A DNA stretch of 24,368 nt from the NCBI GenBank assembly GCA_943704415.1, contig CALSCO010001139.1, forward strand, positions 1 through 24,368. Reading direction: 5' to 3'. Source of the DNA: Parvularia atlantis (Eukaryota > Opisthokonta > Rotosphaerida). The stretch's first letter is position 1. Each line of letters starts with the position of its first letter. Shown in pieces: positions 1,712 to 23,329 of the stretch. A program made the translations under genes and the position numbers. The notes under the pieces are model-generated. The model made no database searches. It had not been told where the DNA came from and saw nothing but the letters and a program-made list of their open reading frames with translations.

Positions 1712-2988
1712 TCAGGTCGCCACGGCCGCCGCGTCGCTCGTGTCGCCCTGCAGCGTCTCGCCCTGCAGCGTCGTCACGGGCTGCCCGCCGCTCCCGACGC
1801 CGCCTTGCCGGCTGCGCCGCAGCGCGCGCTCGGGCTGCGGCGGCGAAGTCGGCACGACACCCGCGGCCGACAGCAGCTGGTTGGAGAGCAGCGAGCGGTC
1901 GCCGGCCGAGGCCGCGGGCGAGAGCACGCTGATGCGCGACTTGAGGTAGTCGCTGCACGCGGCGCAGTCAGCCCCACACGCACGCGCTCACGGAGCCCAC
2001 GCACACGATCGCCGTCGACAGCAGCATGAGCAGCGCCGACACCGACACGCCCAGGATCAGCAGCACCGCGAGCACGTGCGACAGCGCCGGCACCGCGTAC
2101 GCGTCCGTCACGGCCATCAGCAGCGCGGCCAGCGCGAGCCCCGCCGCGCCAAGAAAGTAGCTGATGGCGAGCTGGCGCATCTGCGCGCGCTCGTCAGCGA
2201 CAGGGGGGGGGGGGGGGGGGGGGGGCGCGGCACCTTGTGCGTGTGCAGGACGACCAGCTGGTTCTGCCCGTCGTGCATGTCCAGGTCGGCCAGGATGAGC
2301 GCCATGACCTTGTGAAAGTGCATCCCGCCCAGCACGACGAGCACGGCGCAGAGCGCGCCATACACGGCCAGGAACGCAAACAGGGCCGTGTGCACCCCAT
2401 CGGCCGCGCCGTTGCCCGTCACGCGCAGCACGCCCAGCACCGCGCTCAACACGACCGCGACCGCCACGAGCACGATCGCGAGGGCCGCCGCCAGGGCGAG
2501 CTGTACGCCGCGCGACGGCAGCAGCGACTTGCGCACCTGCTGCGCCGCGTCGATGTAGGCGGGCGGGAGCGAGCGCAGGCTGTGCGCGCGACGTCAACAA
2601 ACACCGATCACACGTCTCCCGCGAGCACGCGCGCGCGCGCGCACAGGGTCAGCAGGAAGACGTCGAGCGCGCTCAGGCCGAGGACGAGGCGCAGCGTGAA
2701 GACGACGTCGCGCACGCCGTCGGCCGGGCCCCAGTCGCGCGCGATCGTGAACGAGTAAAGCACGTCCAGCGCCGTCAGGGCCGCGCCCAGCACGACCATC
2801 GCTTCGTGCCCGCGCGGCTCGCCCTCCCAGAACAGCGTCAGGCGCTGCACGCCGAAGCGGTAGACGAGCAGCCCCGCGGCGACGGCCAGCGCGGCCGCCG
2901 CGAGCGCGCCGTTGGCCGTCCACAGCGCGCGGACGAGCGCGGCTTCATCGCAGCCGGTGGCCTGAACGCGCCAGTCGCACGGCGCCAT
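1712..2988 (-). CDS. Seven-transmembrane protein of unknown family, 4 exons
   Basis: Exons (minus strand) 2988-2645, 2579-2234, 2180-2005, 1952-1712; introns of 65, 53 and 52 nt; 368 aa. All phases agree. The start is ATG 2988; an earlier in-frame GTG is not needed. Seven hydrophobic segments fall at about residues 24-45, 62-83, 94-115, 140-164, 172-197, 236-258 and 262-288. The N-terminus is short and the C-terminal tail is about 80 residues, Ser/Thr/Gly/Gln-rich and without membrane segments. This topology resembles a GPCR-like receptor with a cytoplasmic tail. I see no DRY, NPxxY or other defining motif, so the family is unassigned. The third intron has several possible GT sites; the chosen one (GT|GTGCGTGG) is the only consensus site that restores frame at a normal length. 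It is the last of three minus-strand genes in tandem (delta-COP, BUD31, this). Confidence 0.75.
2203..2225. repeat. Homopolymer run of 23 G (C on the sense strand of an intron)
   Basis: Uninterrupted run of 23 G on the plus strand. It lies inside intron 2 (2181-2233) of the minus-strand seven-TM gene. In the transcript it is a C run between the 5' splice site (GTGCCGCG) and the branch-like CTGAC. It takes up almost half of the 53-nt intron. The exact length may be affected by sequencing or assembly. Confidence 0.9.
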
Positions 2989-3084
2989 CCGCACGTCACA
3001 AAAACGCGGCTACGCACGCGGCGCACTACACATCCACACGTACGCGCCTCCCCCCTCGCGCGGTACTGCTGCCTTCCGCGGTCT
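2989..3084. other. 96-nt intergenic region between BUD31 and the seven-TM gene
   Basis: The two genes are in tandem on the minus strand, so this stretch must hold the 3' end of BUD31 and the promoter and leader of the seven-TM gene. I see ACAAAAACG and a pyrimidine run (CCTCCCCCCTC) but no recognisable TATA box or poly(A) signal. Confidence 0.4.
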
Positions 3085-3770
3085 TCACGCGTCGGCGCAG
3101 CCGCGGCACCCGCAGTGGACGCACTCGACGATGCGGTCGACCACTTTGTCCTTGGGCACGCGGCACAGGCACGCCGAGCCAAAGTTGGTGTCGCGCGGCT
3201 GGATGCAGCGCAGGCAGCACAGGTTGTTGAAGCCGGGCTGTGCGCAGTGTAGGATCAGCACGCACGCTGCACACCGCCCCGAGCAGCACGCCGCACGCAC
3301 CTTCTTCCACTTGGCGATCAGCTCCGCATCGGCGTACTTCTCGGCCAGGCAAAAGTCGTACAGCTCCTTGCTGATCGCGTGCCGCTTGTGGTAGATGTCG
3401 TAGATGTACCTGCGCGCCGCCGTCAGCGCCCAGCCGCGGCCGCGATCCCCCCCTGGCCGCACCGCGACCGCTGGTGGTGCAGCTTGAAGATGGTCCAGCC
3501 AGACTCGACGCGCCGCTTGCCCTCGTGCGGGTCGTTCTCGGCTGTTGCGCGCGCCGTGTTCACGACACACACGGCAAAAAAAAAAAAGCGGGTCCGGGCG
3601 CGCACCGTCGCGGAACTTCTTCTCAAACTCCTTGAGCGTGGGCTCGATGAGCTCCCACCCCTCGGGGTACACCGTCCGCGCGCGCCGCACCTGCGCCAAG
3701 CCGCGCGCGCGCGCCCGCCGCGAGCGTGAGCCGCGCCATCTGCGCTCTCGGACGACTAGACCTTTGGCAT
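3085..3770 (-). CDS. BUD31: BUD31/G10 spliceosome-associated protein, 5 exons
   Basis: Exons (minus) 3770-3762, 3690-3606, 3541-3463, 3409-3301, 3237-3085; introns 71, 64, 53 and 63 nt. The spliced product is 144 aa, the same length as human BUD31. It begins MPKVRRAR with [10 protein letters not shown] close behind, then [32 protein letters not shown] and the Cys-rich end [29 protein letters not shown]. In the family this C-terminal Cys cluster binds zinc. BUD31 belongs to the NTC-related part of the activated spliceosome and acts in the nucleus, so it helps remove the very introns seen around it. Exon 1 is only 9 nt (M-P-K); its intron opens with GTCTAG, atypical for this window, but the family N-terminus supports it. 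Intron 2 has a 12-T run on the sense strand. Confidence 0.96.
3576..3587. repeat. 12-A homopolymer (T on the sense strand) in BUD31 intron 2
   Basis: Run of 12 A on the plus strand inside the 64-nt second intron of BUD31. On the transcript it is a U tract about 35 nt before the 3' splice site, in a region otherwise nearly free of A/T runs. It could serve as a displaced pyrimidine tract. It could also vary in length between isolates. Confidence 0.85.
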
Positions 3771-3850
3771 GGCCGCTTGTCATAAAAGTCGCGACTTCCG
3801 TCCGACTCGACTGCAAAAAGCGCCTCGAGAAACCGCACCACACGACACGT
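3771..3850. promoter_or_regulatory. 80-nt tandem spacer: delta-COP 3' end and BUD31 promoter
   Basis: Lies between the delta-COP stop (TAG, 3851-3853) and the BUD31 ATG (3770). It carries AAGTCGCGACTT at 3787-3798, a perfect 12-nt palindrome. Read toward BUD31 this gives CGACTTTTATGAC ending about 11 nt before the ATG. A related CGACTTTCGAC element precedes TTC7 and Sec8. Regulatory function is inferred from position and recurrence only. Confidence 0.4.
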
Positions 3851-6202
3851 CTACACGACCGCAAACTCCTCCGGCACAACCCCGACGCTGCTCGAGAAGA
3901 TCACCGGCCGGCCGTCCTTGACCGCGACGACGTCGCTCACGCGCAGGCGCGACAGCAGCGTGCTCGACGTGAAGTGCACCGTCAGCGGGAAGAAGCCTGC
4001 GGGCTCCGAGTTGGCCACGGAGAACTCCTGCGTACGCGTGCGCGCATGGCATCAGCGGGCTGCGGGCGCGTGAGACCGCATGCGCGCACCATCGCGCCGC
4101 TCTTGTTGGCCGCACTGATCTGCGACAGCTGCCACTCGAGCACGCGCTTCTGCTTGTTGTACTGGTAGTCGCCCTCAACGTTGCCCACGATCGGGTTGCC
4201 CCCACCGCTGCGTGCGCGCGTGCGTCAGCTGCGTGCGTGTGCGTGCAGGAAGCAGCGAGCGCGCACGGCGGGATCGGAATGCTGATGATGACGTCGTCCA
4301 GCAACAGGTCCTCGCGCTCGAGCTCGTACTCGATGTTGACGTCGCACGAGCCGTTGTTGGCCGGCGTCGGCCAGCAGTTGACTGGGGCAGCATCACGTGA
4401 GACGGCGTGCACGCGGCCCGCGCAAGGAGCGCGGACGCACTCGACAGCGGGATCGCCATCTCGTCCTTCGTCTGGTACCGCCACTTGAGCACGCCGAGCG
4501 CCTGCGGGCACGCCGTCAGCGCAACATGCGTGCGCGCATGCAGTCGCACCTGCCCCACGGGGAACGGCCGCGTCGGGTCTTTCAGCCCGACCTTGCCCTC
4601 GGCCGAGAACATGCGCTTGTCGACGTTCGGGTGGGTCTGCGCAACCGCGTGCATGGGTCAGCCACCACGTGCACGGCCTCGCGCGTGCACACACACCTTG
4701 AACTGGTACGTCTTCTCGTCGACACCCTCGAGGTTGACGCGGATGAGCGCCTTGTCGGCGTCCGAGATGCGCAAGAACATCTCGCCTGCGACGCACGCTG
4801 AGCCCACGTCGCGCGTACGAGAGAGGCAGGCGCACCCTTGACCTCGAGGTTCTCGAGGCCGCCGTCGCGGTTGCTCACGACAACCAGCTTCTCCTCGATC
4901 ACGACGTGCACACTGCGCGCGGGTCAGCCGACGCGCCGATCCCCCCCGGAGGGGGGGTGCGCGCCCACCTCTCGGTCTTCTCAACCGGCGTCGCGGCCGA
5001 GGCCTTCGCCTTGTCGGGCGTGGGGACCGCGTCCACACCCAGGTCCAGGCCTGCGCGCGGCCAGTGTGAGGCCTCGTCAGTGCGCGGCGGCGTAGCGCGG
5101 CAGCGGCACGCACCGTCCTCGACTTTCATCGCCTCGAGGAAGTCGGTCGCCGACTGCTTCTTCGAGCCGAGCTGCATGCCGCGGCCGACGGGCGTCGCGG
5201 GCCTGCGTACACGCGCGTCAGCAGGCGCCGCCCTCGAGCGGGTGCGCCCGTGCGCACTTGGCCGCCGCTGTGCTCGTGTACGACGACGACGACGACGTGC
5301 GGCCGTAGCCTCCGTCGTCGCGCGCGCCGCCCGACGACGTCAGCGATATGGCCGCGCTGCCGTAGCTCGGCGGGCCCGCGGACGACGGGCCCATGCTGCC
5401 CATGCCCGGCCCGAAGCCTTTGCCCTTGCGCGCGTTCTCTTTCCGCTGCAGCTCCATCTGCTTGATGTGCAGCTTGGCCTGCTCCTTGGCCTCCATCTCC
5501 TTGTTCTGCGGGGCGCGCGCGCGGCGTGAGCTTGCGTACCGCGAGGCGACGCGTGCGCGCACCTTTGCGATCATCTCCTGAATCTTCTCCTCGTGGCTCT
5601 CCATCTCGGTGAACGTGCGGATCTGCGCGAGCACGCCGTGAGGCTCGGCGCGGTGCACGGCGTCGTGAGCGTGGCTGCCGCACCTGGTTGATCTGCACGT
5701 TCTCGTTGTACCCGAGCGACACGACCTCGTCGAACGCAAACAGCAGCTCGAACGAGTGCTGCACGACCTCGTCCTCGTCGAGCGTGCGGCAGTACTCGGG
5801 CACGATGCGCGAGAAGAGGTGCAGGGTCTGGGCGGCGGCGGCGGCGCGTGATGGTCAGTACGCGGCCGCGACGCGCGCTCGTCACGCGCCTCCAGGTCCT
5901 CGAGGATGTTGCTCGTCTTGGTCGTGACCAGGACCATGTACAGTTCCTCCATCGGCTGGTAGACGTAGCGCACGTTCTCGGTCTCGACAAACGTGTGCTG
6001 CTGCCCCGCGCCGAGCAGCTTGGGGAAGGCCGCCAGCAGGCCCTCGACGCGCGAGCGGTTCATCTCCACGAACTGGCGCGCGACAAGCGGCTTGCCGCCC
6101 TTGCTGAGGATGGCCGCCGACAGCACGACCTGCGGCGGGCGCGGCGCGGCGGGCCGTCAGCTGCGGGCGTGGCGCCGGGCAGAAGGCCGACGCGCGCACC
6201 AT
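3851..6202 (-). CDS. ARCN1: Coatomer subunit delta (archain), 14 exons
   Basis: Exons (minus) 6202-6200, 6129-5890, 5827-5684, 5622-5563, 5505-5258, 5202-5114, 5050-4969, 4912-4836, 4785-4697, 4636-4550, 4501-4441, 4381-4267, 4207-4090, 4027-3851; introns 48-70 nt; 529 aa (human 511). The N-terminal longin-like domain (about 1-135) reads [51 protein letters not shown] and [16 protein letters not shown]. Then come a charged segment ([16 protein letters not shown]), a Gly/Ser-rich linker, and the mu-homology domain (about 275-529) with [61 protein letters not shown] and [10 protein letters not shown]. It is a subunit of the COPI coat on Golgi-to-ER vesicles. Exon 1 holds only the ATG. Intron 2 (5828-5889) is GC-AG. 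Intron 7 has a C7/G7 hairpin. Divergent from the glycosyltransferase. Confidence 0.97.
4913..4968 (-). other. delta-COP intron 7 with C7-TCC-G7 inverted repeat
   Basis: This 56-nt intron (GTGGGCGCG...GCGCGCAG) contains seven C, then TCC, then seven G on the sense strand. That could fold into a 7-bp all-GC hairpin with a 3-nt loop. CTGAC follows near the 3' end. The hairpin could bring the 5' splice site and branch point closer, or it could simply be drift in a GC-rich genome. Confidence 0.75.
5828..5889 (-). other. Non-canonical GC-AG intron in delta-COP (intron 2)
   Basis: Protein alignment requires joining SNILEDLE to [12 protein letters not shown], as in the family (human NILEDLETLRLFSR). 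The only junction giving this is CTGGAG|GCGCGTGACG...CCGCCCAG|ACCCTG, a 62-nt intron starting GC. Every nearby GT either breaks the frame or adds residues not found in the family. GCGCGT differs from the window's consensus GTGCGT at the second base only. The branch-like sequence TACTGAC is the strongest of this gene, which may compensate. Confidence 0.85.
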
Positions 6203-6255
6203 GGCGATGGACGCTTCTGCGCGTTACTGTGACGCACAAACCCATCGCGAGCGCC
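6203..6255. promoter_or_regulatory. 53-nt divergent promoter, delta-COP / glycosyltransferase
   Basis: Only 53 nt separate the delta-COP ATG (6202, minus) from the glycosyltransferase ATG (6256, plus). Both starts are well supported, delta-COP by the family N-terminus (MVVLSAAI) and the other by an immediate signal-anchor. Both promoters and leaders must share this space or reach into the neighbour. It contains GTTACTGTGACGCAC and no evident TATA box. Confidence 0.5.
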
Positions 6256-7368: not shown

Positions 7369-7434
7369 GCGACCCGGCGATTGTACTTCTTTTGTGTTTC
7401 CATTTTAGTGCATAGGCCGCCAAACAGCACTGCA
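7369..7434. other. 66-nt convergent 3' region, glycosyltransferase / ATP-citrate lyase
   Basis: Stops of the two convergent genes are separated by 66 nt, noticeably richer in A/T than the flanks (TTGTACTTCTTTTGTGTTTC and CATTTTAG). This suits cleavage and polyadenylation of both transcripts. AATAAA is absent on both strands. The mature 3' ends probably overlap or abut. Confidence 0.4.
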
Positions 7435-10400
7435 TCACGCCGCCAGCTGGTCGCCCACCAGGTACGAGATGTCGTCCCACGGGTGGCGGTACAGGCCCTG
7501 CTTGAGCCGCTTCTGGTCGATGTAGTGGCCCACGAAGCCGATGCTCCGCCCGACCACAAACAGCGCGTTGAGGCAGCCGATCTTGACGTACTCCTGCGCG
7601 CCCGCACCCATCGCCCGTCAGCGCGCCCAGACACGCGCACAGCCTGCGACGCACGTCGGCCTCGTCGCGCGTGAACGCGCCGCACGTGCGCATCAGGTCC
7701 ACAAACGCCACGCCGATCGCGCCGTCGACGTTGAGGATCAGGTTGTCCTTCTTGGACGTGGTCACGGCCTCGACCGAGGTGGCGTAGTCAAACACGGGCG
7801 TGCTCGGGAAGTGCTTCTTGACAAACTCCTTGATGATGACCACGCGCAGGTCCGGGTTGGTCTTGGACTTGATGCGGTGGCCGATGCCCAGGATGAGCTT
7901 GTTGCTCTTGCGCATGTGCTCCACAAACTCGTGCGGCGTCAGGCCCTTGTCGTAGCCGGACGAGAACTGCTCGGCCGCGCCGTCGAGCGCGCCGCCAAAG
8001 CGGTCACCCTGCGACAGCGCCCACCCGTCAGCACGCCGCAGCCAGCCAGCCTGGCCGCACGCGCGCGCACGATCGTCAGCAGGCCCGAGCACAACGACGA
8101 GATCAGGTCCTTGCCCGCGCGCGCCGTCACAATCGTGTTGTGCGCGCCCGACACGGCCGGGCCGTGGTCGGCCGTGAGCATGAGCACCATTTCGATGAAT
8201 CGGCAGCAGTAGTCGGGCAGCCGGCGGCGGAACCACAGCAGCGACACGACGCCGCCAATGCCGATATTCTCCTTGAACACCTGCGAGATCGGCATGCCCG
8301 CGTACAGCTGCGTGGCCGCGTCAGCACCCGCCCCGTCGCGCACCCGCTCGTGCGCGCCGCACCAGCTCCTGCCCGCGGTCGTCCACGATCGTTGACACAA
8401 AGTTGGCCGGCTTGCGAATTAGGCCGAGCTCTTGCGCCCAGGCGTAGTCGATCGGGACCTTGGGCACCTCGGGCTCGGGCTTCTGCACGACGACGCCCTG
8501 GCTCACGAGCTGCGTCGTTGCGGCGTGGGCTGTCAGTCGGTCGCGCCGCACTTCCGCGCGCGTGCGCGCGCACACCTTCTTGAACGTCTCTTCCAGCAGC
8601 GTCGGCAGGTCCTCGAAGCTGTTGGGCACGAGCGCCCCGGCGTCGCGCAGGCCCTTGTTCTTCGCGTCGGCCGTCTCCATCTCGCTCTGCGCGAGCGAGC
8701 CTGCGTGGCCAAACTGCACCTGCGAGGGCCAGCGCGTTGAGACCGCAACGCGCGCACACACCAGCGTGGCACACCTCGGTCGTAAACATCTTGGCGCACG
8801 TGCCGATGCACCACGCCACGAGCGGCTTCTTGATCTCGCCGCTCTTGATCGCCTTGGCGATCTTCCACTCCTCCACGCCGCCGACCTCTCCCAGCAGCAC
8901 GATCATCTTGCAGTGTGGGTCGGCCTCGTAGCGGAGGATGTGGTCGATGAACGTCGTGCCCGGGTAGCGGTCGCCGCCGATGGCCACGCCCTCGTACACG
9001 CCGTCAGTGTGGCGCGAGAGGATGTTGTTGAGCTCGTTCGACATGCCGCCGGACTTGGACACGTAAGCGACGCTGCCGGGCCGGTACAGCTTCGAGTCGA
9101 TGATGTTGTCCATCATGCCGCCCGTGTTGCCCACCTTGAAGCACCCGGGCTTAATCCCGCCGACCTGCGCGCGGGCCGCGGCGTACGCCGTCAGGCGCGT
9201 GCAGATCCCTTGCAGCGGGCGCGCACCGTCGCCGGGCCAATGATCGTCACGCCGAGCGCGCGCGCGTGCTTGATCAGCTGCTTCGTGCGCTGCTCGGGCA
9301 CACCCTCGGCGATGATCGCGATCGTGCGGAACTGCGGGAACTTGAGCAGCTCCATTGTGCTCTCGTGCACCGAGCGGAACGACGCGAAGTTGACCACAAC
9401 GTCCACGTCAGGGAACTTGGCCACGGCGTCCTGGACCTGAGCACGGCGGTGTCAGTTACGCCTGCGGGTCACGCGCGGCACACACGACCTTGGTGAAGAC
9501 GGGCACGAGGGTCTCAGCTGTGCCCCAGTAAAACTTCTGGACGTGGTTGCCGCCAAACGGGTAGATCATGCCCGCGACCGACGCGCGCTTGCGGCCGCAG
9601 ATGTGGTCAAAGTCAAGCATGCCCTGGCCCCGCCGCGGTGTCAGCCCACGTCGCGCGCGCCCACTGCTACATGCGCACCTGCACTGCGCGCGGCTGCATG
9701 CCGTACACAAACGCGCGCGTCTCGTTGTTGAAGAGCGAGAACTGGGGCTTCTGCGCGGGGGCGTCCGGCCTGTGCGCCCGTGCCGCGTGAGTTGCGCGCG
9801 ACGGGCCCCGCGCACGCACGTGTCGAAGCTCGCAATCACGCCCGTGCCGTCCGCGTCGCCCGCCGTGGCGCTGCCGCTGGCCGCCGCTGCGCCACCGCTG
9901 ACGGTGGCCTGCGCGTCCAGCCCGTCGTTCGACTCGCTGCCGTACACGCGCTCGTTGAAGCTCATGGATGACGTGCGCCGGTGCAGTTCAGGCTTGATAC
10001 CGAGGGCGATGGGCACTGCGCGCGACGGCGCACGTTTCAGCGCCCGCTGCACGCGCGCGCGCAAGCCAAGCGCGCGGCGCACCAATGCCCGTGATGAACA
10101 TCTCCGGCCCGTGCACGTAGATCGGCACGCCCAGGTTCTCGCCCAGCTGGCGCATCGCGCGCAGGCCCTCCTGGTAGTTGGGCCCGGCACGGCGCACAAA
10201 GATCTTGACCTTGGTCTGGATCAAGCGGTGGCGGTACTCCTTGAGCGCGCGGATGATGCCCTTGAAGGTCGCGGCGACGTTGGTGAAGTTGGCGATGCCG
10301 CCGCCAATGATGAGGACCTTGCCGTCCGGGTGGGCCTCGCGCGTCATGAGGTCGAGGATCGTCTTGGAGTACTCGTACGTCTGGTCCTCGTTGGGCGCGC

Positions 10401-11452
10401 CCGAGTACTCGCCGTAGTTGGCCAGCTCGTGCGCAAAGCCCGCCGCGGCGATCGCGTCGCTGTACACGACCGAGGCGCCACCGCCGGCGACCATGGTCCA
10501 GATGCGCCCTTTCGGGTTGAGGATTGTCAGCTTGAGCGACGCGCCGGTCTTGGAGTCGAGGTCGGCGATGTACGCCTCTATGTGTGCGCGCACGTGCGGC
10601 GGCGTGAGTGTGGCCGCAGCGACCGCGTGCCGCACACACCCTCCGGAAAGCTCTCGCGGCCAAACGGCGCGGGGAACTCGACCGGGCCCCACATCTTGCC
10701 GCACTCAAACTCGGCCGTCTGGTCGAGCTTGGCGGCGAGGTCGAGGTAGTGCACCTGGTCAGCCACGACGACGAGCGGGTTGATCTCGAGGTAGGTGAAG
10801 TTGAGCTGAACGTAGACGCGGAAGAGCGACGCGACGAACGAGGCGAGGAGGGGCCGGCGCTGCTCGGGCACGTGAATGAGCAGCTTGCTGGTGACGGCCT
10901 CGGGCGCGATCGTCTCATTGACCGGCACGAGCACGCGCTCGGCCTTGCTGTCGACGTCGCCGACGTCCACGCCGCCCTCGTGGTAGAACAGAATCTCGTC
11001 GCCCTCGCGCTCCGAGTGGATGCACACGTAGTACTCGTCCGCGGGCTGGTGCGGCACGAACGGCTCGACAATGAACGTCTTGAGCAGCCCAGAGACGGCG
11101 CCGGCCGTGACGGGCTTCTGCAGGCGCGCGCGGATCCACTCCTTGGCCTCGTCCCAGCTCGCGTTGAGCAGCAGCAGGCCCGACTTGCCGCGGCGCTTGA
11201 TGAGCTGCGCGACCGCTGCCGTGTGAGTGCTGCGGGGTGCTGCACGGTGACGGCGCGCACCTGGTCTGGCTTGGCCACGAGCTTCTCCGTCAGCAGCCAC
11301 GCGTGCTCGGCCGGGAGGCGGTCGAGGTCGGTGGCGGCGTCGACCTGGACGTTGCGGTTGCTCGTGACGAAGCGCGCGCCGCCCTCGGCCTCCTTGAGCC
11401 ACTTGGCGAGGATGCGCTTGCCGTCGTACTCGCGGATCGCCTTGGCCGACAT
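7435..11452 (-). CDS. ACLY: ATP-citrate lyase, single-chain animal type, 13 exons
   Basis: Exons (minus) 11452-11261, 11204-10640, 10577-10083, 10015-9820, 9769-9679, 9623-9489, 9436-9227, 9164-8775, 8719-8576, 8509-8363, 8307-8071, 8008-7655, 7593-7435; introns 50-67 nt; 1104 aa (human 1101). It makes cytosolic acetyl-CoA and oxaloacetate from citrate, CoA and ATP. It begins [12 protein letters not shown] as in animals. The ATP-grasp part has [17 protein letters not shown] and HHEGG-like [12 protein letters not shown]; then [20 protein letters not shown] and [15 protein letters not shown] Ser-rich linker (about 420-485) follows. The CoA-ligase part has the phospho-histidine H763 in VQFGHAGS. 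The citrate-synthase-like C-terminus has [22 protein letters not shown] and [14 protein letters not shown]. One 5' site is ambiguous: exon 6 may end at 9489 or 9486, adding one Val. Plants and many fungi use two subunits; here both are fused. Confidence 0.97.
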
Positions 11453-11776: not shown

Positions 11777-14637
11777 ATGTCGACCGCCGAGCTCGACCTG
11801 GCGCGCGACCGGCGCGCGTGGGAGGCGCTGCCGGCGATGGCACGGCGCCTGGCGCGGGCCGCGGGCGCCGACACGGCGGCGGCGTACGACGCGCTGCTGA
11901 CCGGCGAGCTCGTGCTGCGCCGCGCGCTGGCCGCGTGGGACGACATCAACCCGGTCGACCACGCCGCGTGCGAGATGGGCGCGCCGGCCGGGCGCCCGCG
12001 CGTGCGCGAGCCGATCCCGCTTGCCCGCGTCGAGACGGCCGTCAAGACGCTCGAGGCGTGCCCGCTGGAGGTGGCGTGCCGTGCGCCGCGCGTGCGGATG
12101 GCGCTGATCGCGCGCGCGATTGACGAAGGACGCCAAGCTGCTCGTGGCCATCCTCCGCGTCGACAGCAGCACCGTCAACGACGCGGCCATGGCGACCCTC
12201 GCCAACGCGCCCGCGCCCACGCCCGTCAGCCACGTGCTGCCGCTGCAGACGCTCCTGGCCAAGGCCGTGCTCCTGTCCAAGACCGGCGCGCTGGCCGAGG
12301 CCGCCAAGCCCCTCGCCGCCGTGCGCGACTTTGCCCTGGCCAACCGCGCCCTCCTCGCGCCCGGCTCGTACACGCTCGCGCTGGCCGAGGAGGCCATGTT
12401 CCGCCTCGCCTTCCTCCAGCACGATCTGCAGTGCGCGCGCGCGCGCGTCGATTACAATCGGTCTTATCGCGCGGTCGCAGGAACGTCGACGCCGCCGAGC
12501 TCGCGCTGCAGCAGTGCCTCGAGCTGCCGCACGTCGCCGACGGCAGCAAGCGCGTCGCCGCGCTGTTCAACTACGCGCGCCTGATCGCCAAGAGCCGCGC
12601 GTTCGAGGACCTGGCCAAGCACCCGCGCCGGCCCGAGGAGCGCGACGAGTTCCGCGCGCAGAACGCGCTCCTGCTTGACGCCGTGCAGTGGCTTGAGACG
12701 AGCGGCGCGCGCGAGGCCTTTGCGGCCGACGCTGTCACACGCGCCTTCTTCGCCGCGCTCGACGTGCTCAACGTCACCGCGGCCCTGCCCGCCGTCGTCC
12801 GCGCCGCCGAGATCGGCATGCGGCTGCTGCCGTACCACGAGGGCCTCGCGTTCACGTACGCGCGCGCGCTCATCCACAGCCACAAGTGCGTCAGCATGGC
12901 TGCGGCGTTCGCGCGTGCGTGCGTGCGTGCTCACCGCGGAACAGGTACCACGAGGCCCTCGCCGTGCTGCGCGCGTGCATGAGCAAGAACGAGCTGCTCG
13001 TGTGGATGGCGACGTGGCTGTGCCTCGTCCCGCTGCGCCTGGACCCGCAGGTCGCGGCCGACTACGCCGAACACGGCCTGAAGCTCGGCAGCAAGTACAT
13101 GGCGCGCTTCCACCACGCCATCGCTGTCGCGCGCGAGCGCCAGGCCGCAGCCGTGCACGACATTGACGAGAAGCAGCGCCTGCAGCACGAGGCCCTCGCC
13201 GCACTCAAGGCCGCACGGGCCGCCGACGCCGACAGTTGGGAGATTGAGTACCACCTGGCGCTGCATCTGGCGCACCAACGCAAGGCACGTGTGCGCGCCC
13301 CAGCCGCAGCACCGCTGACGGCACGCCGCCGCGCGCGCAGATCAAGTCGGCCGTGTCGCACATCAAGTCGGCCATCGTGCTCAACGACGCCAACCCGGAT
13401 CTATGGAACCTGCTCGTGCTCCTGTGCACGTGCAACCGCGACTTTGCCGCCGCCGACCAGTTCTGCCTCCAGGCGCTCGAGCGGCACAAGCACGACGTCA
13501 GCCTGTACCTGACCTGGACGCTCATCCAGGGCTACCTGCACGGCCTGCCGCGCGAGGTCGCATCCCTGCGCAACCTGTTCAACCGGGTGCGCCTCCGCTC
13601 ACGTCCGGCGTGCGCGCGTGTCAACCGCGGCGTGTGCAGATGCCCAGCACGAAGCGCTCGGCCGCCGACGACCAGCTCGCGCGCGTCCTGTCGATGAGCG
13701 ACGTGTCCGAGTCGGGCAAGTCGTCCGTGGCCAAGCGGCGCAGCAACACGTTCAGCCGCGCGTTCGGGCGCTTTGCCGCGCGCGCCGTGGCCCAGACGAG
13801 TGAGAGCGAGCAGTCCGAGACGCCACCGGCGCCGGGCGGCGACGCGATGTCGCTCGACTCGAGCGTGATGGGCGCGATGAGCGCCGTGTCGGCCGACGGC
13901 GGGCACCCCGTGCGTCGCCGATGCACTCTGCGCGCGCGTGTGCGCACGTGCTGACCTGCTTGGCGTGGCGCAGGCCGTGCATGGCGACCAGGTGCGCGAG
14001 GCCTTGCTGTGGACGCACGCCGGCCACGCGTACCTGCGTATGGGCAACATGGACGACGCGCTGCTGTGCATCCACACCGCGTGCTCGCTTGAGGCGACGC
14101 TGCCGGACGCGTGGTGCCTGGTGCGGCCTGCTGGCGGCGCTGCCAGCCTTGCTCACGCACACATCAGCACGGCGAGTTTGTCGCGGCGCAGAGCGTGCGC
14201 GACACGGACGAGGTGCTCGCGTTCTTCTACAAGGCGCTCGCGCTCAACAGCACCCACGTCGTGCGTCGCTGAGCGTGCTCGCATGTACGTGAAATGTGTC
14301 CTGAACGCCGCGGCCCAGCCCTCGCTCGTCGGCAGCGGGCGCATCCTGCACAAGGCCGGGCGGCTCGCGCTCGCACACCAGCACCTGACGGCCGCGGTCA
14401 ATCTGGACGAGCACGACGCCGCGGCGTGGTGCGTACGCGCACGAGATCGGTCGCGCGACTAACTGCTGACCGGTTCGCCGCAGGCTCGCGCTCGGTCGCG
14501 TCTACCGCGCGCTCGGCGAAAAGACGACGGCAAGCGACTGCCTGCTGCGCGCCTTTGCCGAGGAGCGCATAACGCCCGTGCGGCCGTTCTCGCGCACGTG
14601 GACGATGCAGACCGGGACAGAGGCGTGGCAGCTGTGA
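11777..14637 (+). CDS. TTC7: TTC7-like TPR protein (PI4-kinase IIIalpha scaffold), 10 exons
   Basis: Exons 11777-12070, 12129-12430, 12481-12885, 12945-13290, 13341-13586, 13640-13909, 13974-14120, 14168-14260, 14319-14428, 14484-14637; introns 47-64 nt; 788 aa (human TTC7A/B about 850). It is helical TPR solenoid throughout. The C-terminal third matches TTC7 best: HAGHAYLRMGNMDDALLCI, FYKALALNSTHV, GRILHKAGRLALAHQHLTAA, LALGRVYRALGEKTTASDCL and a final PVRPF, like human AVPF. TTC7 (yeast Ypp1) holds PI4-kinase IIIalpha to EFR3 at the plasma membrane for PI4P synthesis. Exon 6 (residues about 532-621) is a Ser/Arg-rich disordered loop at the same place as the variable loop of animal TTC7. The exon 1/2 junction (GAG|GTGGCG...GACGAAG|GAC) is the least certain because of its AAG acceptor. 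It converges on PLD with 26 nt between stops. Confidence 0.9.
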
Positions 14638-14663: not shown

Positions 14664-17600
14664 CTACAAGAATATCTGTTCGGGCGCGAGCGACGTCGGG
14701 TCGAGCGACGTGCGCCGGAGGAAGCGGTGCGGGAACGTGACGACGCGCCCCTGCAGCTTGCTCAAGTGGGCCAGCGCTGCGTCGCTCGGCATCGGCGACG
14801 ACCGCTGGAACGTGCGGTACTGCTCCCACGTCTGGACGGTGTCGTCCGGGAGGCAGTGGAACACGTCGCGGTAGATCTGCGTGTTGCGCTCAGCGTAGCG
14901 GCGCCACACGCGCTCAAAGCAGTGGTCCGAGGCCGGGTCGAGCGCGCCGACGATGTCGAGGTCTAGCCCGAGGTGCTCGCTCCAGAGCGTGCGGCGGAGC
15001 GCGCTGGCCGCGGTGGTGTCCTCGACCCGTGCGGCCATCTCCGAGTCGCGCATGCCCAGCAGGCTCCGGTCGTTGATGTTGGCCGAGCCGACGATGACGA
15101 CGCGGTCGTCGGCGATCATGAGCTTGTCGTGCACGTAGATCAGCTCCGTCTTGAGCGCGTCGTGCCCGAAGAAGGCCCACTGGCGCAGGGCGAAGAAGGC
15201 CACGTACTCGTCCGGGTTGATGCCCTCGGCCTTGAGCCGCCGCCGTAGCGCCCCGACCGACCGCAGCTGTGCCGCCAGCACCGAGCGCAGCGACGCCGCG
15301 AGCGCGTCGGCCACGTCGCCCTCGAAGGCAGGCAGGAGCGGCGTGACGATGTAGGCGCGGAACGGGCGGCCCTCGTCGCGCGCGCGCACAATGCGCTGGA
15401 ACAGCGCAAACGCAAACATGTTCTCGTACGGCAGCGGCCCGCCCGTCGCGGCCTCGGCCTCGGCGTCCGGATCCACAGCCCCGCCGGCGTCGAGCGCGGC
15501 GCCGTTCAGCTCGAACGCGCCCGGCCCGCTCGTCTGGTGGCTGTTGGTCACGAAGAACTGGTTCTCGACGTAGACGTAGCGCTCGGCCAGGAGGATCGTC
15601 TGCATGTAGGCGTTGTAAATCGAGTGCTCGGTCCTGAGCCCGCCGTATGACCAGCGTGAGGCCGAGCGCAGGATCTGCACCGAGCACGGGCCCGTGGCGG
15701 GGAAGCGGCGGTTCGTAGGCACGGCAGGGTAGGCGGTTGGCACGAGGAAGCTGACCTTGGGGTTGCGCCTCGCTGCCCAGCACCGCAGTCAGCGCACATG
15801 CGAGCGGCGTGGGCAGCTGCGACCGCGCACGCACCCTTGCTGACCTTGCAAAAGTTCCACCGCTGAATGAAGCTGTAGGCGACGTCGCTCGCGCTCTGGC
15901 CGCAGATGCGCACGGCGACGTCGTGCCAGGGCATGCGCGGGACGCTGCGCCGGTCGATCGAGTCGATGTGCCACTCGTGCAGGTTGTGAAAGTCGCGCTT
16001 GAAAGGGTTCGAGTAGTCCTTGCCCGGGAAGAGCACGCGCCACGGCCCCTCGCCCGGCGGGCTGTCGCTCGTGCGCCCCTTGGTGTGGTAGTGTCGCGCC
16101 GTGCGCGCCGACGGCAGGAGTGCGTCGTCCGGCGCGAGCTCGCCCATGACCGTGTAGTCGGCGCCGGTCGAGGCCGACGGCGTCAGGCGCCCGCGCGACT
16201 CGTTCATGCTTGACACCGATGAGGCCAGCTTGCGCAGTTGCCGCACGAAGCGCGGTGCGCGGCGCGCGTGCGACGCGGCCGTGGCGCCGCCGGCTTCGCC
16301 GGCCTTGCGGGCCTCGCGGTCCTCGTTCGCGTGGTAGCCGTTGCCGTCCATGCCGTGCTCGTCGGGGTCGGCGGCAAAGTCGCGCAGCGGGTGCTGCGCC
16401 GTGTCGTACCGCCCAAAGCACAGGTCAATCCCGCCCACGAACGCGACCTCCTCGTCGATGCAGACGACCTTCTCGTGGTGCGCCCAGTAGAGCGTGCCGC
16501 CGACGTTGAGGTGGTCCGGGTGGCGGATGACCTCGATGTTGGGGCTGAGCGCGCGCAGGACGTTCTTGGCGTGGGTGCTGCCGAGGGTGAGGGCGGCCTC
16601 AAACTCCTTGTAGAGTATGATGTAGATGTGCACGCCCTCGTCGGCCTTGCGCTTGAGCAGGCGGTCCAGCCGGAATTGCTCGTTGTCGGCGGGCGGGCGG
16701 CGCAGGTACAGCTCCGGGCTGAGGCACCAGTCGGCGATGAAGATGGTCCGCGCGGCCGCGGTGATCGCGTGCGCGACCGCGTCAAAGTACGCCTGCGCGT
16801 CCACGAAAAACATGGCGTGCTGGCGCGCGCGCACGGGCGCAAAGCTGTCGTGCGGGTGCCGCTGCACGCGCTCGCTCCGCTCTCGCAACAGCAACAGCGC
16901 CTCGACGATGCGCCGCGCGCGCCGCCTGGACACGACGCGCATCGTCAGCTCGCGGTAGTCGTTGCTGACGACGATGACCCGGTTCGAGCCCTCGGGCACA
17001 CGCACGCGGAACGCGTGGTCAACCATCAGCACCTCGTGCGCCTCGACCTCGTCCAGGTCGTTGTAGTACGCGATGCAGTTTGGCCGCAGCACGAGCCTGC
17101 TGCGCGTCAGCGCACGCCCGGCCACGAGAGCGCGCAGGCACGCACCACTTGCGGTTGCTGCGTTGCAGCCACTGCACCCAGTCAATCACGAACGAGACGA
17201 GGCGCCAGTTGTGCCGCTGGTACAGGCGCCCGCCCGGGTACTTGAGGATGAACGTCTCGAGCGGCTTGGGCGCGTTGACGTCGACAAACGACACGACGCT
17301 GCACTCGATGAACGCGCACACAAGCAGCTGCGTGCGTGCGTGCGTCAGCAGTGTGACGTGCGCAAAAGTGTGGCGCGCACCGCGGCCTCGTGCGCAAAGT
17401 CGCACCCGAGCAGCAGCGTCAGGTACACGCCAAAGGCGTCGCGCTGGCGCGCCGTTAGCTCCGGCAGGGCGGCTACGTCGCCGGCGGCCATCGCGCTCGC
17501 GATCGGGTCCTCGTCGTCATCCTCGTGCATGGGCGAGTCCTCGAGGTGCTGGTGCAGGCGGAGCGACGCGAGCCGTGGCGACGTGGCCGCGTGCTCGTCC

Positions 17601-18213
17601 ACGTGCAGCTGCGTGAGCGATGCGCTCGCGCCGGTGGCCGCGGCGGCCTGCGTCGGGTTGGCCGGGAACGACGGGAGCGGCCCGGTGCGGCGGCGGAGCT
17701 GGAGCAGCTTGAGGAGCGAGTGCAGCTTGAGAAAGTCGCGGTAGCGGCGCTTGACGGCCCACTCGAAGCGGCTCTTGCGCAGGCGCAGGTGGATCGTGTA
17801 GAGGTTGTACGTCTGGAGGAAGGCCAGCTGGGGCACGCGCACGACCTGCTCGACGGCGCCCATGCGGCAGTGGATGCGCGGCAGGAGCGCGTGCAGCTCG
17901 GCGGGGGCGGGCCACGCGCCGCCGCCCGACCCGATCGTGCCGCTGGCGCTGCCGGTGCGGGTGCCGTCGGCGCTGGCGTGAGCGAGCTGGAACGCGGGGT
18001 GGGGTGGCGCAAGGGTGGTGGGGGCGGGGGGGGCACGGGTAAGCGCGCGATTGCATCGGGACTGTCAGCCTGCACCGCGTCGGTCAGGGTCGGCGGCGAC
18101 GGCACGGCGAGGCGCGTGGTCGTGTGCGAGCCGTCGCCGTCGCCCAGTCCGTGCACGCCCACGGCGCTTCTGCTGCTCGCGCTGTCTTCTCCGATGCGCG
18201 CAAGCACGTCCAT
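14664..18213 (-). CDS. PLD1: Phospholipase D, PX-PH type (PLD1/2-like), 5 exons
   Basis: Exons (minus) 18213-18037, 17986-17381, 17327-17146, 17096-15835, 15772-14664; introns 50, 53, 49 and 62 nt; 1111 aa (human PLD1 1074). It hydrolyses phosphatidylcholine to phosphatidic acid and choline at membranes; the family is activated by PIP2 and small GTPases. N-terminal about 100 residues are low complexity. The PX domain (about 105-280) has NLYTIHLRLR and AVKRRYRDFLKLHSLL; the PH-like region (about 285-395) has NRKWLVLRPNCIAYY. The two catalytic HKD motifs are intact: H529-K531-D536 (HHEKVVCIDEEVAFVGGIDL) and H957-K959-D964 (HDKLMIADDRVVIVGSANIN). FIADWCLSPELYLRRP and RHIYVENQFF-like YVYVENQFFVTN are also family hallmarks. 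A loop of about 130 residues after HKD1 is Ser/Arg-rich. Intron 1 is C-rich without a clear branch site, so the exon 1 link is less sure. Confidence 0.95.
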
Positions 18214-18287
18214 CGGCAGGGAACGTGCGTCAGCGGAGAGTCGCGATGGGTGTCCAGTGGCAGGTCACACATCAGTGACGCTCGAAA
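18214..18287. promoter_or_regulatory. 74-nt divergent promoter, phospholipase D / PRMT
   Basis: Between the PLD ATG (18213, minus) and PRMT ATG (18288, plus). On the plus strand it holds GAGTCGCGATGG, sharing AGTCGCGA with the BUD31 and Sec8 upstream regions, and CGCTCGAAA directly before the PRMT ATG. On the minus strand CGCTGACG precedes the PLD ATG, so part of the region could be a leader intron for PLD. No TATA box is seen. Confidence 0.4.
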
Positions 18288-19376: not shown

Positions 19377-19435
19377 CCGAGGCGCTCGTGGAACAATTGT
19401 ATCATTGTGGCGCACAGATGCATGCATCTACACCG
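19377..19435. other. 59-nt convergent 3' region, PRMT / Sec8
   Basis: Lies between the PRMT TGA and the Sec8 TAG. It is mixed in composition with an A/T-richer centre (GGAACAATTGTATCATTG, containing the palindrome CAATTG). No canonical AATAAA is present. It probably serves 3' end formation in both directions. Confidence 0.4.
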
Positions 19436-22400
19436 CTACCGCGCCTGCCATGACGCGCGCTTGGTCACCTCGACGATCTGCTGCTCGACCGCGTTGTTGA
19501 ACCCGAGCGTGTCGTGCCCGAGCGCCTCGGCGTTGCGCAGGATCAGTCGCAAGACCGTGTCGTACTCGGCCGGCGAGAACAGCGCGGCGTTGGCGGCGAT
19601 GTAGGCCGCGAGGTTATCGGCGTCGTAGTCGAGCAGGGCGTAGAACTGGCGCACCCGGTTGAGGTAGCGGTCGAGGATGATGCCGGGCGCGACCGTGGCC
19701 GAGAGGCACTTTTGCAACGCAAAGACGTTGCGCGCCATCTTGAGCGAGGCGTACTGGTTGACGGGGCCGATGTACTTGGCGTCGGCGCACAGCACCGCGC
19801 TGAGCAGCTGCGGCACACCGTCAAACACGTAGAGCAGGGCCGGGTCGCGCAGGCGCCGGCTCAGCGCCTCCTCCAGGCCGGCCAGGTCCTTGCTCAGGCT
19901 GAGCACGTACGGGTCGGGCTCGACGGCCTCGGACGCGGGCGCGTACGTGCCCTCGCGCACAGCCAGGTCGACGAAGTAGTGCACGTGGCAGCGCACCTCG
20001 GTCCGCAGCACAAACAGGCAGCCCTTGGCCATGTCGCGGATGCGCTCGGCGATCTCGTTCAGGCGCGCCTTGCTCTCGTCGTCCATGAGCAGAAACATGG
20101 TCGCGCCGACGTTGAACGCGACCTCGTTCGCCACCGCCGCCACGTTCTCCAGGTCAATCAGCGCCATGGCCACGTCGTCCGCGCCGCCACCTGTGCCTGA
20201 GCCACCACCGCCGCCGCCGCCGTCACCGGACGCAACAACCACGGGCGCGTTTTCGTCCAGCGCGGCGGCGCGCATGCCCTCGAGCTGCTCCATCATCCAC
20301 ACGAGGCTGTGGTGCAGCGTCGCGACAAGCAGGAGCCGCGCCGGGTCCCACACGAGCTGCTCACGGTCCGTCGTTGCCGCGTCGCCCTTGGCCTCGAGCT
20401 CAGCACGGGTCTGGTCGTCGTTGGTGATGTCGTCCAGGCGCAGCAGCGTGCTCTGGACGGGCACGGCGAGCGGCAGGGTCTGCGACAGGAGCGGGTGCTT
20501 CTGCAGGGCCTTGCGCACGGCGGGCAGCTGCGTCCAGCGGCGCGCGATCGTGTCGCCCGTGACCGCGTCAAACTGGCGCTCGCACGTGTTGAGGTACTCG
20601 ACCAGGAGGATCTGCACGAGCGAGATGTATTCGTTGCAGTGCAGCGGCACGGTCGTCATAATCTTGCACAGCTCGCGAATTAGCCACAGCACGACCACGG
20701 CGCTCTACGCGGCGGGTCAGCGCCGCCGTGAGCCCGCACGCACACGCGCGCGCACACGCCTTGAGCAGCGGCCGCTCGGAGGCCGCGTCGATAAACAGCT
20801 CGGTCTTGGTCGGCGCCGCGCCCGAGCCGTACTTGATCGACGCGCTCATCTGCCGCAGGACCTTGTCGCGGATCAGCGGTACGACCTCCTCCAGCACAAA
20901 GTCGTCCAGGAAGGCCTGCAGCCGGCCCTGCGCGTCACCCGGGCGCGCGCCCACGAGCTTCATCATCGCCGTCGTGAAGCGCTCGGTCGGGCGGTACAGG
21001 AGCGAGATATTGAGCGCGTCAGACGGCAGCAGCAGCCGGTGGCCGCCGCGCCCCGCGGCCTGGTGCAATGCCGCGGTTAACCACGGCGCATCCCGCGTGG
21101 CAGCACGCGCGCACCATGCCCAGGTAGATGTCGTCCATGGTCTCGATCAGCATCGTGTCCTCCTTGCGCTTGAGCTCGCGGTAGTGCGCCGCCATCGTCT
21201 TGGAGCTCTCCGTGCCCGCGAAGCTGAACATGCGCGTCTTCATGATCGAGGCCGGCGCCGGCGCGGTGCTCGCGGGGCTGTCGGCCGGGCGCGCGCGCAG
21301 CGGGTCCTGCAGGTAGTCGCGCAGGACCGACTCGAGCTGTGCGCGGGCGTGAGACACGGGCGGATCGGAAGGCCGGCGGCAAGCGCGCACCTCCTCCTGG
21401 ATGGCCTCCCACACGTCCATGCTCGAGAGCGCGTCCGTGCCGAGGCGGTAATTGACGCGCTCGCAGACAAACTGGCACCGCCGGAAGATGGCGCGGTATT
21501 GGCGGTACAGCGTGCGCAGCAGCGAGCGCAGGACGCGCGCGCGGTGTGCGGGGCTGTTGGCCGCGGAGATGGCCACGGCCGAGGCGTCAAAGCGCGTCGT
21601 GACGACAGACGAGGTGTAGTTGCTTAGGCCCGACGCCTCGGCCGCCTCGACCTCATTCAAAGCGCTCTCGGCCACCTGGAAAATCTCGAGCCGGAGGCTG
21701 CGCTGCAGCACCTGCACAAACGCCGGCAGCTGGCCCAGCCGGTCGAGGCTGTCGACGAGCACGGCGAGGCGTCGCATGGGGTCGGCTGCGCCCGCGCTCG
21801 CGCCCGCGCCGAGCTTGTCGCCCTCGTCTGTCACGTCGTCGCGCGGGCCAAGCTGGCGGCGCGTGCTCGCGGGTGCGGCGGCCGCGACGGCCTGCTGGCC
21901 GGCGGCGTTGAGCGACGCGGTGGACGCGGTGGCCTCGCCGGGCATCGACCCGAGTGTGCCGCGCCGCCCAGTGCGCCCCGTCCTGTGCGCTGTTGACGCG
22001 CGTCAGCCGTGCACGTGCACAAAGACGACGGACGGCGCGCACGGTCGAGCGTGAGGGGCGAGAGCGCGAGAAAGCCGCTGGACGCCGACATATCCGTCAC
22101 CGAGAGACTGTCGCGGTGGAGGCCGCTGCGGCGCAGCGACGTGCTCGACAGGGACTCGCGCAGGCCGTGCGCGGGCGAGGCGGCGCGGTCGTCGCCGTCG
22201 CGCACGGGATTGTCGTCGTCGTTGTCGCACAGCTCCTCGTCCTCGTCGTCGTCCGCGGCCGCATTGGCCGTGCGCCCGTGCGCGGCCACGCGTGCACCCG
22301 TTCCGTCCAGGCGCGCGCGCCGCCCAAACAGCTGCACGAGCAGCTCGTCGGTGAGCTTGGCCGGAAACGAGTCGCGGTTCTCGTCGAGGGCGCGGCGGAT

Positions 22401-23024
22401 GTCTGCGATCGCGCCGATGTCGCGCACGCCCTCGGCGTTGGCCAGGCGCGTGGCGGCGGCGAGGTGGCCCACGGCGCTGAGGTAGTGCTCGGCCTGGAAG
22501 GCCTCAGCGATGCGCGCGGGCATTCGCTTGAGCTCGTCGATCTGCGCCAGCAGGCGGCTCATCTCCTTGCACTCGATCGTCTTGGTCCACAGGCGCGACA
22601 GGCCCTCGCGGCGCGTGCGCAGCAGCTGCAGGAAGTGGCGCGCCTCGAGCAGGTCGCGCTTGAGCTGGTTGACGCGCGTCTGGGCGTCGGTGACGTGCGC
22701 GACGATGCCGCTGAAGGTCTGGATCGAGTTGTTGAAGCCGAGGTGGTACTCTGCCGCACCACACACGTCAGCGCGTGCACACGGCGCAGCAGCACGGCGG
22801 CACGCACCGTTGACGATCTTGCCCACGTCGCCCTCGAGCCGGCGCGTCTGCTCCTCGAGCGCGCGCAGGCCCCGGGCGCGCTCGGTGCGCCCCGCGACGA
22901 TGTCGAGCGCAATCGTGACCGGGTCGAACGGCGCGCCGCCACCGTCGCCGTCGTCGTCGTCGGCCGCGAACTCGGGCCAGGCCTCGCGCACGTGCGCGAG
23001 CGAGGCGGCGACGGCCGCGTCCAT
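19436..23024 (-). CDS. EXOC4: Exocyst complex component Sec8 (EXOC4), 6 exons
   Basis: Exons (minus) 23024-22808, 22750-22043, 21989-21391, 21336-21115, 21059-20758, 20702-19436; introns 57, 53, 54, 55 and 55 nt; 1104 aa (human 974). Sec8 is a rod-like CATCHR subunit of the exocyst, which tethers secretory vesicles to the plasma membrane. The N-terminal coiled-coil segment matches the family: RREGLSRLWTKTIECKEMSR, LLAQIDELKRMPARI and AEHYLSAVGHLAAATRL (human RDELRKLWIEGIEHKH, HYLSATDMLVSAV). The C-terminus gives GCLFVLRTEVRCHVHYF, AVREGTYAPA, DPYVLSLSKDLAGLEEALS and ARNVFALQKCLS (human VLQCCLLLHLEVRVHCFYF, DPLVVKLNKDISAMEEAMS). Low-complexity inserts (about 320-420, with DDDEDEE) and a Gly run near residue 850 account for the extra length. 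The fifth junction (GC|GTGTGCG...GTAGAG|C) uses a GAG acceptor and is the least certain. Intron 3 is stopless and a multiple of three. Confidence 0.94.
21337..21390 (-). other. Sec8 intron 3: in-frame, stopless 54-nt intron
   Basis: GAG|GTGCGCGCTTGC...TCTCACGCCCGCGCACAG|CTC. It has consensus 5' and 3' ends and a CTCAC branch-like site, but is 18 codons long with no stop in frame. Removing it gives VWEAIQEELESVLRDYLQD, matching the Sec8 pattern VWxxIQxxLxxLLxxYLD; keeping it inserts 18 Arg/Pro/Ala-rich residues. Splicing is favoured. Confidence 0.75.

Positions 23025-23266: not shown

Positions 23267-23329
<63 letters not shown>

Follow-up and report, generated by a model that had tools for sequence, protein, structure and literature searches.

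A strong GTGCG donor consensus alongside a canonical U1 gene and U6 ACAGAGA box in an intron-dense, GC-rich genome

We analysed a contig of Parvularia atlantis (CALSCO010001139.1, 24,368 nucleotides, taken in its entirety and called the window below) together with 20 pieces, each of 10 kb, taken from other contigs of the same assembly, and found that most introns of this genome share an uncommon 5′ splice site (donor), G|GTGCG(C/T). The window corresponds to the full length of contig C286 in a 616-contig, 16.25 Mb assembly of about 70% GC, and the sample amounts to 21 loci and 220 kb. We think it quite probable that these are ordinary U2-type introns whose donors would be read by canonical U1 and U6 small nuclear RNAs (snRNAs), and that the C at the fourth intron position (+4) arose from GC bias and was then favoured by selection. 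This reading builds on directly established gene structures, the consensus itself, the snRNA gene sequences, the presence of METTL16 and SNRNP27K, and an excess of C over its sequence context. The preference for C at +4 beyond composition is real and unexplained.

The consensus was read from a gene finder in which an intron needed only to start with GT (or GC, which was penalised) and to end with AG; its interior had a flat composition, and positions +3 to +6 were not used. The coding model was seeded with the codon usage of 11 open reading frame stretches of the window, most of them supported by Pfam, although one (8130-8300) was in the wrong frame and another ran into its stop codon, and it was afterwards retrained four times on all 21 loci. 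This consensus-free run gave 408 introns, 223 of them with GTGCG, when GC was admitted. The GT-only version gave 409; the 286 that measured 45-75 nt were kept for base counts, and 60 shorter and 63 longer ones were excluded. The base frequencies in the 286 were G.85 at +3; C.76, G.12, T.10 and A.02 at +4; G.79 at +5; C.47 and T.31 at +6; and G.65 at the last exon position (-1). An ordinary genome-wide consensus of GTAAG or GTGAG, against which the initial annotation had set its GTGCG donors, was looked for and is not what the sample shows (0/286 and 2/286, respectively).

A refined round, which uses the learned consensus and permits GT-AG and GC-AG ends only, called 544 introns with a median length of 56 nt, of which 517 measured 45-75 nt (494 GT-AG and 23 GC-AG). 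Among the refined GT-AG introns of this length, GTGCG was the commonest donor in all 21 loci, ranging from 13/22 to 17/17. The information at positions +3 to +6 was 3.4 bits in the consensus-free set and 4.9 bits in the refined set. The 544 introns lie in 155 kb of coding sequence, about 3.5 per kb, which extrapolates to about 40,000 genome-wide. Anti-correlated donor classes, defined by G at -1 and G at +5, gave no clear signal (odds ratio 1.5, p = 0.22 in the consensus-free set; 0.40, p = 0.045 in the refined set). GT...AG scored best among the 10 pairs of intron ends that we tried, with a small advantage from the model's intron composition, which came from GT/GC-AG introns; it also gave the strongest signal at +3 to +5 (GCG in 184/286, compared with 62/166 for GT..AC and 57/161 for GT..GA). 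The controls with wrong ends still yielded 128-176 "introns" of 45-75 nt, because the gene finder needs gaps to bridge frames; not all of its calls are therefore true.

Homology provided a check on individual junctions. Residues 1-1120 of the predicted ATP-citrate lyase (1122 aa) aligned with PDB chains of ATP-citrate synthase (1537 bits), and the coatomer delta and BUD31 products matched their homologues at 454 and 196 bits. These three genes hold 28 introns, 23 of which are supported either by gapless flanks at the junction or by an exact alignment gap: 8 junctions in ATP-citrate lyase, where the alignment was checked up to about residue 958, 9 in coatomer delta, 2 in BUD31, and 4 retained introns whose length is a multiple of three (3n). 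Omitted from the 23 were junctions in variable or ambiguous sequence (those following residues 484 and 554 in ATP-citrate lyase and residue 251 in coatomer delta, and the 3n intron at 5051-5113), as well as the intron at 7594-7654, which lies outside the alignment part examined. In the supported introns, with the alignments read by hand, G occupied +3 and +5 in all 23, and +4 was C in 18, T in 4, G in 1 and A in 0. Homology places a junction to about one residue, and the exact base was set by the trained caller. For 12 of the 19 supported junctions that had been called, the consensus-free run gave the identical placement, with C in 8, T in 3, G in 1 and A in 0 at +4.

The seven intron-bearing genes of the window contain 48 introns, 42 called by the refined gene finder and 6 that it overlooked, all of the latter in-frame, stop-free and of length 3n; four of the six are exact gaps in homologue alignments. 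Their donors are GTGCG (38), GTGTG (6), GTGCC (2), GTGGG (1) and GCGCG (1), so that our count of 44/48 for the first two agrees with the roughly 43 of 50 reported initially, as do the outer coordinates 1953 and 22807 with intron ends. Chance can be gauged from all GT sites of the window, both strands included: of 2808, 235 are GTGCG and 70 GTGTG. Between 8 and 42 nt from the intron end, CTGAC occurs in 26 and CTCAC in 12 of the 48 introns (random stretches of the window that end in AG would give 2.1 and 1.5), close to the earlier figures of about 27 and 11; 36 of the 48 have a CTNAC near their end. The proposed length range of 47-71 nt, with none longer, describes the window well: 46 of the 48 introns fall within it, and the other two measure 46 and 37 nt, the 37-nt call at 12092-12128 being doubtful and left out of Table 1. 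It does not extend to the genome, where longer introns exist; when the caller could place introns as long as 600 nt, 19 of 541 in the sample exceeded 75 nt and 4 exceeded 200 nt.

The introns are predicted to belong to the U2-type (major) spliceosomal class, with which their ends, the snRNA genes and a branch site that can pair with U2 all fit. CTNAC is present in 306 of the 494 refined introns, compared with 12.9% of shuffled ones (CTGAC 173, CTCAC 122), and in 245 of 334 CTNAC copies the branch A lies 12-23 nt from the intron end. A pyrimidine tract is not visible, C+T ranging from.44 to.56 over the 12 nt that precede the last three bases. The 3′ part of the intron would thus consist of a CTGAC or CTCAC branch site, in most cases with the branch A 12-23 nt ahead of a terminal CGCAG, and would lack a tract. 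Introns of 47-71 nt would probably be paired across the intron (intron definition), and recognition of this kind is compatible with the short lengths and the missing tract. Base pairing of the two ends of an intron with each other was considered separately, as many introns start with GTGCGCGC and end with GCGCGCAG, and was rejected: an intron's own ends scored no better than permuted ones (17.18 versus 17.29, z -0.7).

Shared ends might also be inherited if the introns were recent copies of each other, as introner-like elements are. The narrow length range would suit such an origin, and 99 of the 494 refined introns have a partner at 30 bits, a modest excess over the 44-50 seen in three shuffles, for which shared motifs may account. 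None has a partner at 50 bits and two have one at 40 bits, and introner families were not seen among these 494 introns of the 220 kb sample. We therefore regard recent copying as very unlikely.

The initial annotation had suggested that U1 might carry a changed 5′ end. The U1, U2, U4, U5 and U6 genes were all detected, which marks the assembly as eukaryotic. The U1 gene begins AUACUUACCUGG and has the canonical 5′ end AUACUUACCUG; it was the only U1 found at E ≤0.001 (41 of 149 first-look candidates scored), and ATACNTACCTGG matches the 16.25 Mb assembly once, inside this gene (a reversed control pattern also matched once, elsewhere). U2 is canonical as well (GUGUAGUAUCUG, GUAGUA region), as are the U5 loop GCCUUUUAC and the ACAGAGA box of U6 (GAUACAGAGAAGAUU), which retains UACAGAGAA. 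In favour of an altered or second U1 that compensates for GTGCG, modelled pairing of the donors with canonical U1 averages only -4.05 kcal/mol over the 494 refined introns, compared with -12.3 for CAGGUAAGUAU (pseudouridine lies outside the model), and a U-to-G change at U1 position 5, the best of 27 single changes modelled, would bring it to -9.13 kcal/mol. The change is absent from the genome's U1, the sole copy found, and we consider such compensation extremely unlikely; within the reach of our searches, a changed U1 is refuted for the assembled genome. By modelled U1 pairing the 5′ site is weak, relying on G at -1, the GU, a G-U pair at +3 and G at +5. The earlier statement that GCG and GTG pair poorly with U1 applies to +4 and fails at +5, where the kept G can pair normally.

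A second, variant U6 was not seen either: a search with RF00026, in which 47 of 492 first-look candidates were scored, yielded a single match, and ACAGAGAAGATT occurs once. TGCGCAAGGATGACAC matched exactly once and with a single mismatch once (contig C389, L032), the latter without ACAGA nearby; the other 27 of 29 matches had two mismatches, and a reversed control pattern gave 10 matches. The sole U6 gene found (L003:1501-1662, plus strand; contig C142:8820-8981) has a peculiarity of its own, a 48-nt insert in the catalytic AGC. The insert splits AGC after the A (GAUUA, then GUUGCG...UCGUU, then GC) or one base on; it lacks GU-AG ends and has a copy of GTTGC on either side. Because stem I of U4 (L006) pairs with U6 over 8 unbroken base pairs only when the insert is omitted, the modelled pairing suggests that it is removed from the RNA. 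Against removal, keeping the insert strengthens the U4-U6 duplex as a whole in the model (-44.7 versus -28.2 kcal/mol).

GC pressure was the other cause first proposed for the unusual donor, and it explains part of it. If GC pressure and GpC-rich sequence set C at +4 and G at +5 by themselves, the splice site would need no preference at +4, and C is indeed the commonest base after GTG everywhere: 57% in intron interiors, 52% in exons and 47% in intergenic sequence. However, given GTG, C occupies +4 in 206/244 splice sites of the consensus-free set, compared with 422/737 in intron interiors (odds ratio 4.0, p = 2e-15), that is, 84% in this set and 91% in the refined set. A is found in 4/244 splice sites compared with 62/737 in intron interiors (p = 9e-5), which puts it below its own background (1.6% versus 8.4%); G and T are under background too, and no A stands at +4 among the 23 homology-checked junctions. 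Because C is enriched about fourfold in odds and A is depleted relative to intron interiors, GC pressure can be only part of the cause, and composition as the whole explanation appears rather unlikely. U1 pairing alone would make A the best base at +4; something other than U1 pairing probably favours C.

Position +4 is where the methyltransferase METTL16 and the splicing factor SNRNP27K exert influence (Parker et al. 2023, PMC10581693, as far as the passages that we draw on go). In Saccharomycotina, according to those passages of PMC10581693 (see also passages of the review PMC11732430), a switch from A to U at +4 accompanies loss of METTL16, of SNRNP27K or of its Met141, with U1 and U6 unchanged. 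In the present genome METTL16 was found on contig C232, with a PF05971 match of 181 bits, a best PDB match to the U6 A43 methyltransferase (168 bits) and an NPPF motif. PF05971 also matches in bacteria, and psilocybin synthases, which we take to be METTL16-like, match the candidate nearly as well (159 bits). SNRNP27K is present at 52 bits, with a Met aligned to Met141. If METTL16 or SNRNP27K had been lost or had decayed, precisely position +4 would be affected (PMC10581693), but both genes are present, Met141 is kept, U6 keeps UACAGAGAA, and the change is to C and not to U. This makes loss as the source of the altered preference quite unlikely, and loss of METTL16 in particular is rejected by the PF05971 and PDB matches. 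A weak second match to Methyltransf_10 (PF05971; 25 bits) lies in L028 (contig C296:13073-13363).

Taken together, the explanation that we favour would run as follows. The genome-wide donor of ordinary major-class introns could pair through G at -1, GU, G at +3 (opposite U) and G at +5, leaving C at +4 unpaired with both U1 and U6. GC-biased composition may have made C the commonest base at this position, where Watson-Crick pairing would be dispensable, and selection may thereafter have fixed C and purged A. We infer that the preference acts at the hand-over to U6, around U6 A43, SNRNP27K and PRP8, and not in U1 pairing. Several points weigh against this explanation. Splicing itself is deduced from reading frame and homology. 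False calls remain among the 286 introns, in which the signal at +3 to +5 is weaker than in the homology-checked set. Seven of the 19 called, homology-supported junctions differ or are absent in the consensus-free run, and so their exact bases depend partly on the trained consensus. Context alone puts C first after GTG, so much of the signal needs no selection, and the U6 stage as the seat of the preference is only our inference.

Among the genes of the window are those for a fused ATP-citrate lyase, for BUD31, coatomer delta and Sec8, for a tetratricopeptide repeat (TPR) protein, for a PX/PLD phospholipase D and for an arginine methyltransferase. The introns are listed in Table 1. A G run at 2203-2225 lies inside an intron, and a predicted start codon at 23368 is closely preceded by a long CT repeat (23271-23327). 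The ATP-citrate lyase (7438-11452) is a full-length single fused chain with 12 introns. A fused chain is animal-like, and the enzyme of green plants has two subunits; because of this difference, the gene suggests a lineage other than green algae, and a host that is not mamiellophycean.

Table 1. Introns placed in the window. "Refined" denotes the consensus-trained caller and "free" the consensus-free run; where both are named, the placement was identical.
Feature	Position	Strand	Basis
Intron, 52 nt, GTGCG	1953..2004	-	refined + free
Intron, 53 nt, GTGCC, holds G run (C on this strand)	2181..2233	-	refined; free gave 2190-2233
Intron, 65 nt, GTGCG	2580..2644	-	refined + free
BUD31 intron, 63 nt, GTGCG, 3n, stop-free	3238..3300	-	exact 21-residue gap vs BUD31
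BUD31 intron, 53 nt, GTGCG	3410..3462	-	refined; free gave 3410-3468; flanks align
BUD31 intron, 64 nt, GTGCG	3542..3605	-	refined + free; flanks align
Coatomer delta intron, 62 nt, GTGCG	4028..4089	-	refined + free; homologue alignment
Coatomer delta intron, 59 nt, GTGCG	4208..4266	-	refined + free; homologue alignment
Coatomer delta intron, 59 nt, GTGCG, CTCAC	4382..4440	-	refined + free; homologue alignment
Coatomer delta intron, 48 nt, GTGCG, CTGAC, 3n	4502..4549	-	16-residue alignment gap
Coatomer delta intron, 60 nt, GTGTG	4637..4696	-	refined + free; homologue alignment
Coatomer delta intron, 50 nt, GTGCG	4786..4835	-	refined + free; homologue alignment
Coatomer delta intron, 56 nt, GTGGG	4913..4968	-	refined + free; homologue alignment
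Coatomer delta intron, 63 nt, GTGCG, 3n	5051..5113	-	in-frame, stop-free; linker aligns loosely
Coatomer delta intron, 55 nt, GTGCG	5203..5257	-	refined; variable linker
Coatomer delta intron, 57 nt, GTGCG, CTCAC, 3n	5506..5562	-	19-residue alignment gap
Coatomer delta intron, 61 nt, GTGCG	5623..5683	-	refined; free gave 5644-5683; homologue alignment
Coatomer delta intron, 62 nt, GC donor GCGCG	5828..5889	-	refined; free gave 5828-5874; flanks LEDLE/TL identical in homologue
Coatomer delta intron immediately after ATG, 70 nt, GTGCG	6130..6199	-	refined; homologue alignment
ATP-citrate lyase intron, 61 nt, GTGCG	7594..7654	-	refined + free; beyond alignment part examined
ATP-citrate lyase intron, 62 nt, GTGCG	8009..8070	-	refined + free; homologue alignment
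ATP-citrate lyase intron, 55 nt, GTGCG	8308..8362	-	refined + free; homologue alignment
ATP-citrate lyase intron, 66 nt, GTGTG, CTGAC, 3n	8510..8575	-	22-residue alignment gap
ATP-citrate lyase intron, 55 nt, GTGTG	8720..8774	-	refined + free; homologue alignment
ATP-citrate lyase intron, 62 nt, GTGCG	9165..9226	-	refined + free; homologue alignment
ATP-citrate lyase intron, 49 nt, GTGTG, 3′ end ambiguous by 6 nt	9437..9485	-	refined; free gave 9431-9485
ATP-citrate lyase intron, 55 nt, GTGCG	9624..9678	-	refined; homologue alignment
ATP-citrate lyase intron, 65 nt, GTGCG	9751..9815	-	refined; free gave 9742-9815; variable linker, 3′ end not homology-fixed
ATP-citrate lyase intron, 67 nt, GTGCG	10016..10082	-	refined; free gave 10016-10052; homologue alignment
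ATP-citrate lyase intron, 62 nt, GTGTG	10578..10639	-	refined + free; homologue alignment
ATP-citrate lyase intron, 56 nt, GTGCG	11205..11260	-	refined; free gave 11205-11245; homologue alignment
TPR gene intron, 50 nt, GTGCG	12431..12480	+	refined + free
TPR gene intron, 59 nt, GTGCG	12886..12944	+	refined
TPR gene intron, 50 nt, GTGCG	13291..13340	+	refined
TPR gene intron, 53 nt, GTGCG	13587..13639	+	refined + free
TPR gene intron, 64 nt, GTGCG	13910..13973	+	refined
TPR gene intron, 47 nt, GTGCG	14121..14167	+	refined
TPR gene intron, 55 nt, GTGCG, CTGAC	14429..14483	+	refined
Phospholipase D intron, 62 nt, GTGCG	15773..15834	-	refined
Phospholipase D intron, 46 nt, GTGCG	17100..17145	-	refined
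Phospholipase D intron, 53 nt, GTGCG	17328..17380	-	refined + free
Phospholipase D intron, 50 nt, GTGCC, less certain	17987..18036	-	refined
Sec8 intron, 55 nt, GTGTG	20703..20757	-	refined + free
Sec8 intron, 55 nt, GTGCG	21060..21114	-	refined + free
Sec8 intron, 54 nt, GTGCG	21337..21390	-	refined
Sec8 intron, 53 nt, GTGCG	21990..22042	-	refined + free
Sec8 intron, 57 nt, GTGCG, CTGAC, 3n	22751..22807	-	frame + motifs only

Similar signals have been described in two green algae. In Ostreococcus lucimarinus outside chromosome 2, the passages of Irimia and Roy (2008, PMC2483917) on which we draw give a donor GTGCGTG and a branch site GACTGACG, termed atypical; matching snRNA changes were thought worth exploring there, and a single spliceosome was thought more likely. 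A GTGCG-type donor and a CTGAC-type branch site are common to both cases. Most of that genome is intron-poor, whereas about 3.5 introns occur per kb of coding sequence here; both CTGAC and CTCAC are used here, and the U1 and the U6 ACAGAGA box have been read and are canonical. The idea of matching snRNA changes does not hold in the present genome, where the donor mismatches canonical U1 at +4; later readings of Ostreococcus U1 lie outside our search. Micromonas has a donor AG|GTGCGT and an NCTGAC branch motif, both like those found here, in the parts of Verhelst et al. (2013, PMC3879977) that we use; its branch site lies 43-52 bp upstream, whereas ours is mostly at 12-23 nt, and our sample, in contrast, showed no introner families. 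The pairing of GTGCGT with CTGAC is therefore already published for these algae and is not new. What is new within the literature searched, as far as our searches show, is this pair of signals in an intron-dense genome with U1 and U6 read. Chlamydomonas introns often begin with GTGCGT, a point that we could neither confirm nor exclude; should it hold, the novelty of the dense-intron setting is reduced.

Strong 5′ signals usually accompany few introns. Contrary to this pattern, the present genome combines a high intron density with a strong 5′ consensus. The comparison with Saccharomycotina (the same passages of PMC10581693) is instructive in another respect: both cases show a lineage-wide shift at +4 with U1 and the ACAGA of U6 unaltered, but there A gave way to U where METTL16, SNRNP27K or Met141 was lost, whereas here the base is C and all three are kept. 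The present case thus falls outside the published link between +4 and these two factors, and the yeast rule, framed as A versus U, does not predict a C consensus in their presence. We tentatively propose, with somewhat less than even confidence, a third +4 state, in which the spliceosome would positively read C, with A selected against and with METTL16, Met141 of SNRNP27K, the U6 ACAGAGA box and canonical U1 all kept. If this is true, U6 A43 and its surrounding proteins, or an unmethylated A43, would have become tuned to C, while the snRNA bases opposite this C stayed as they were.

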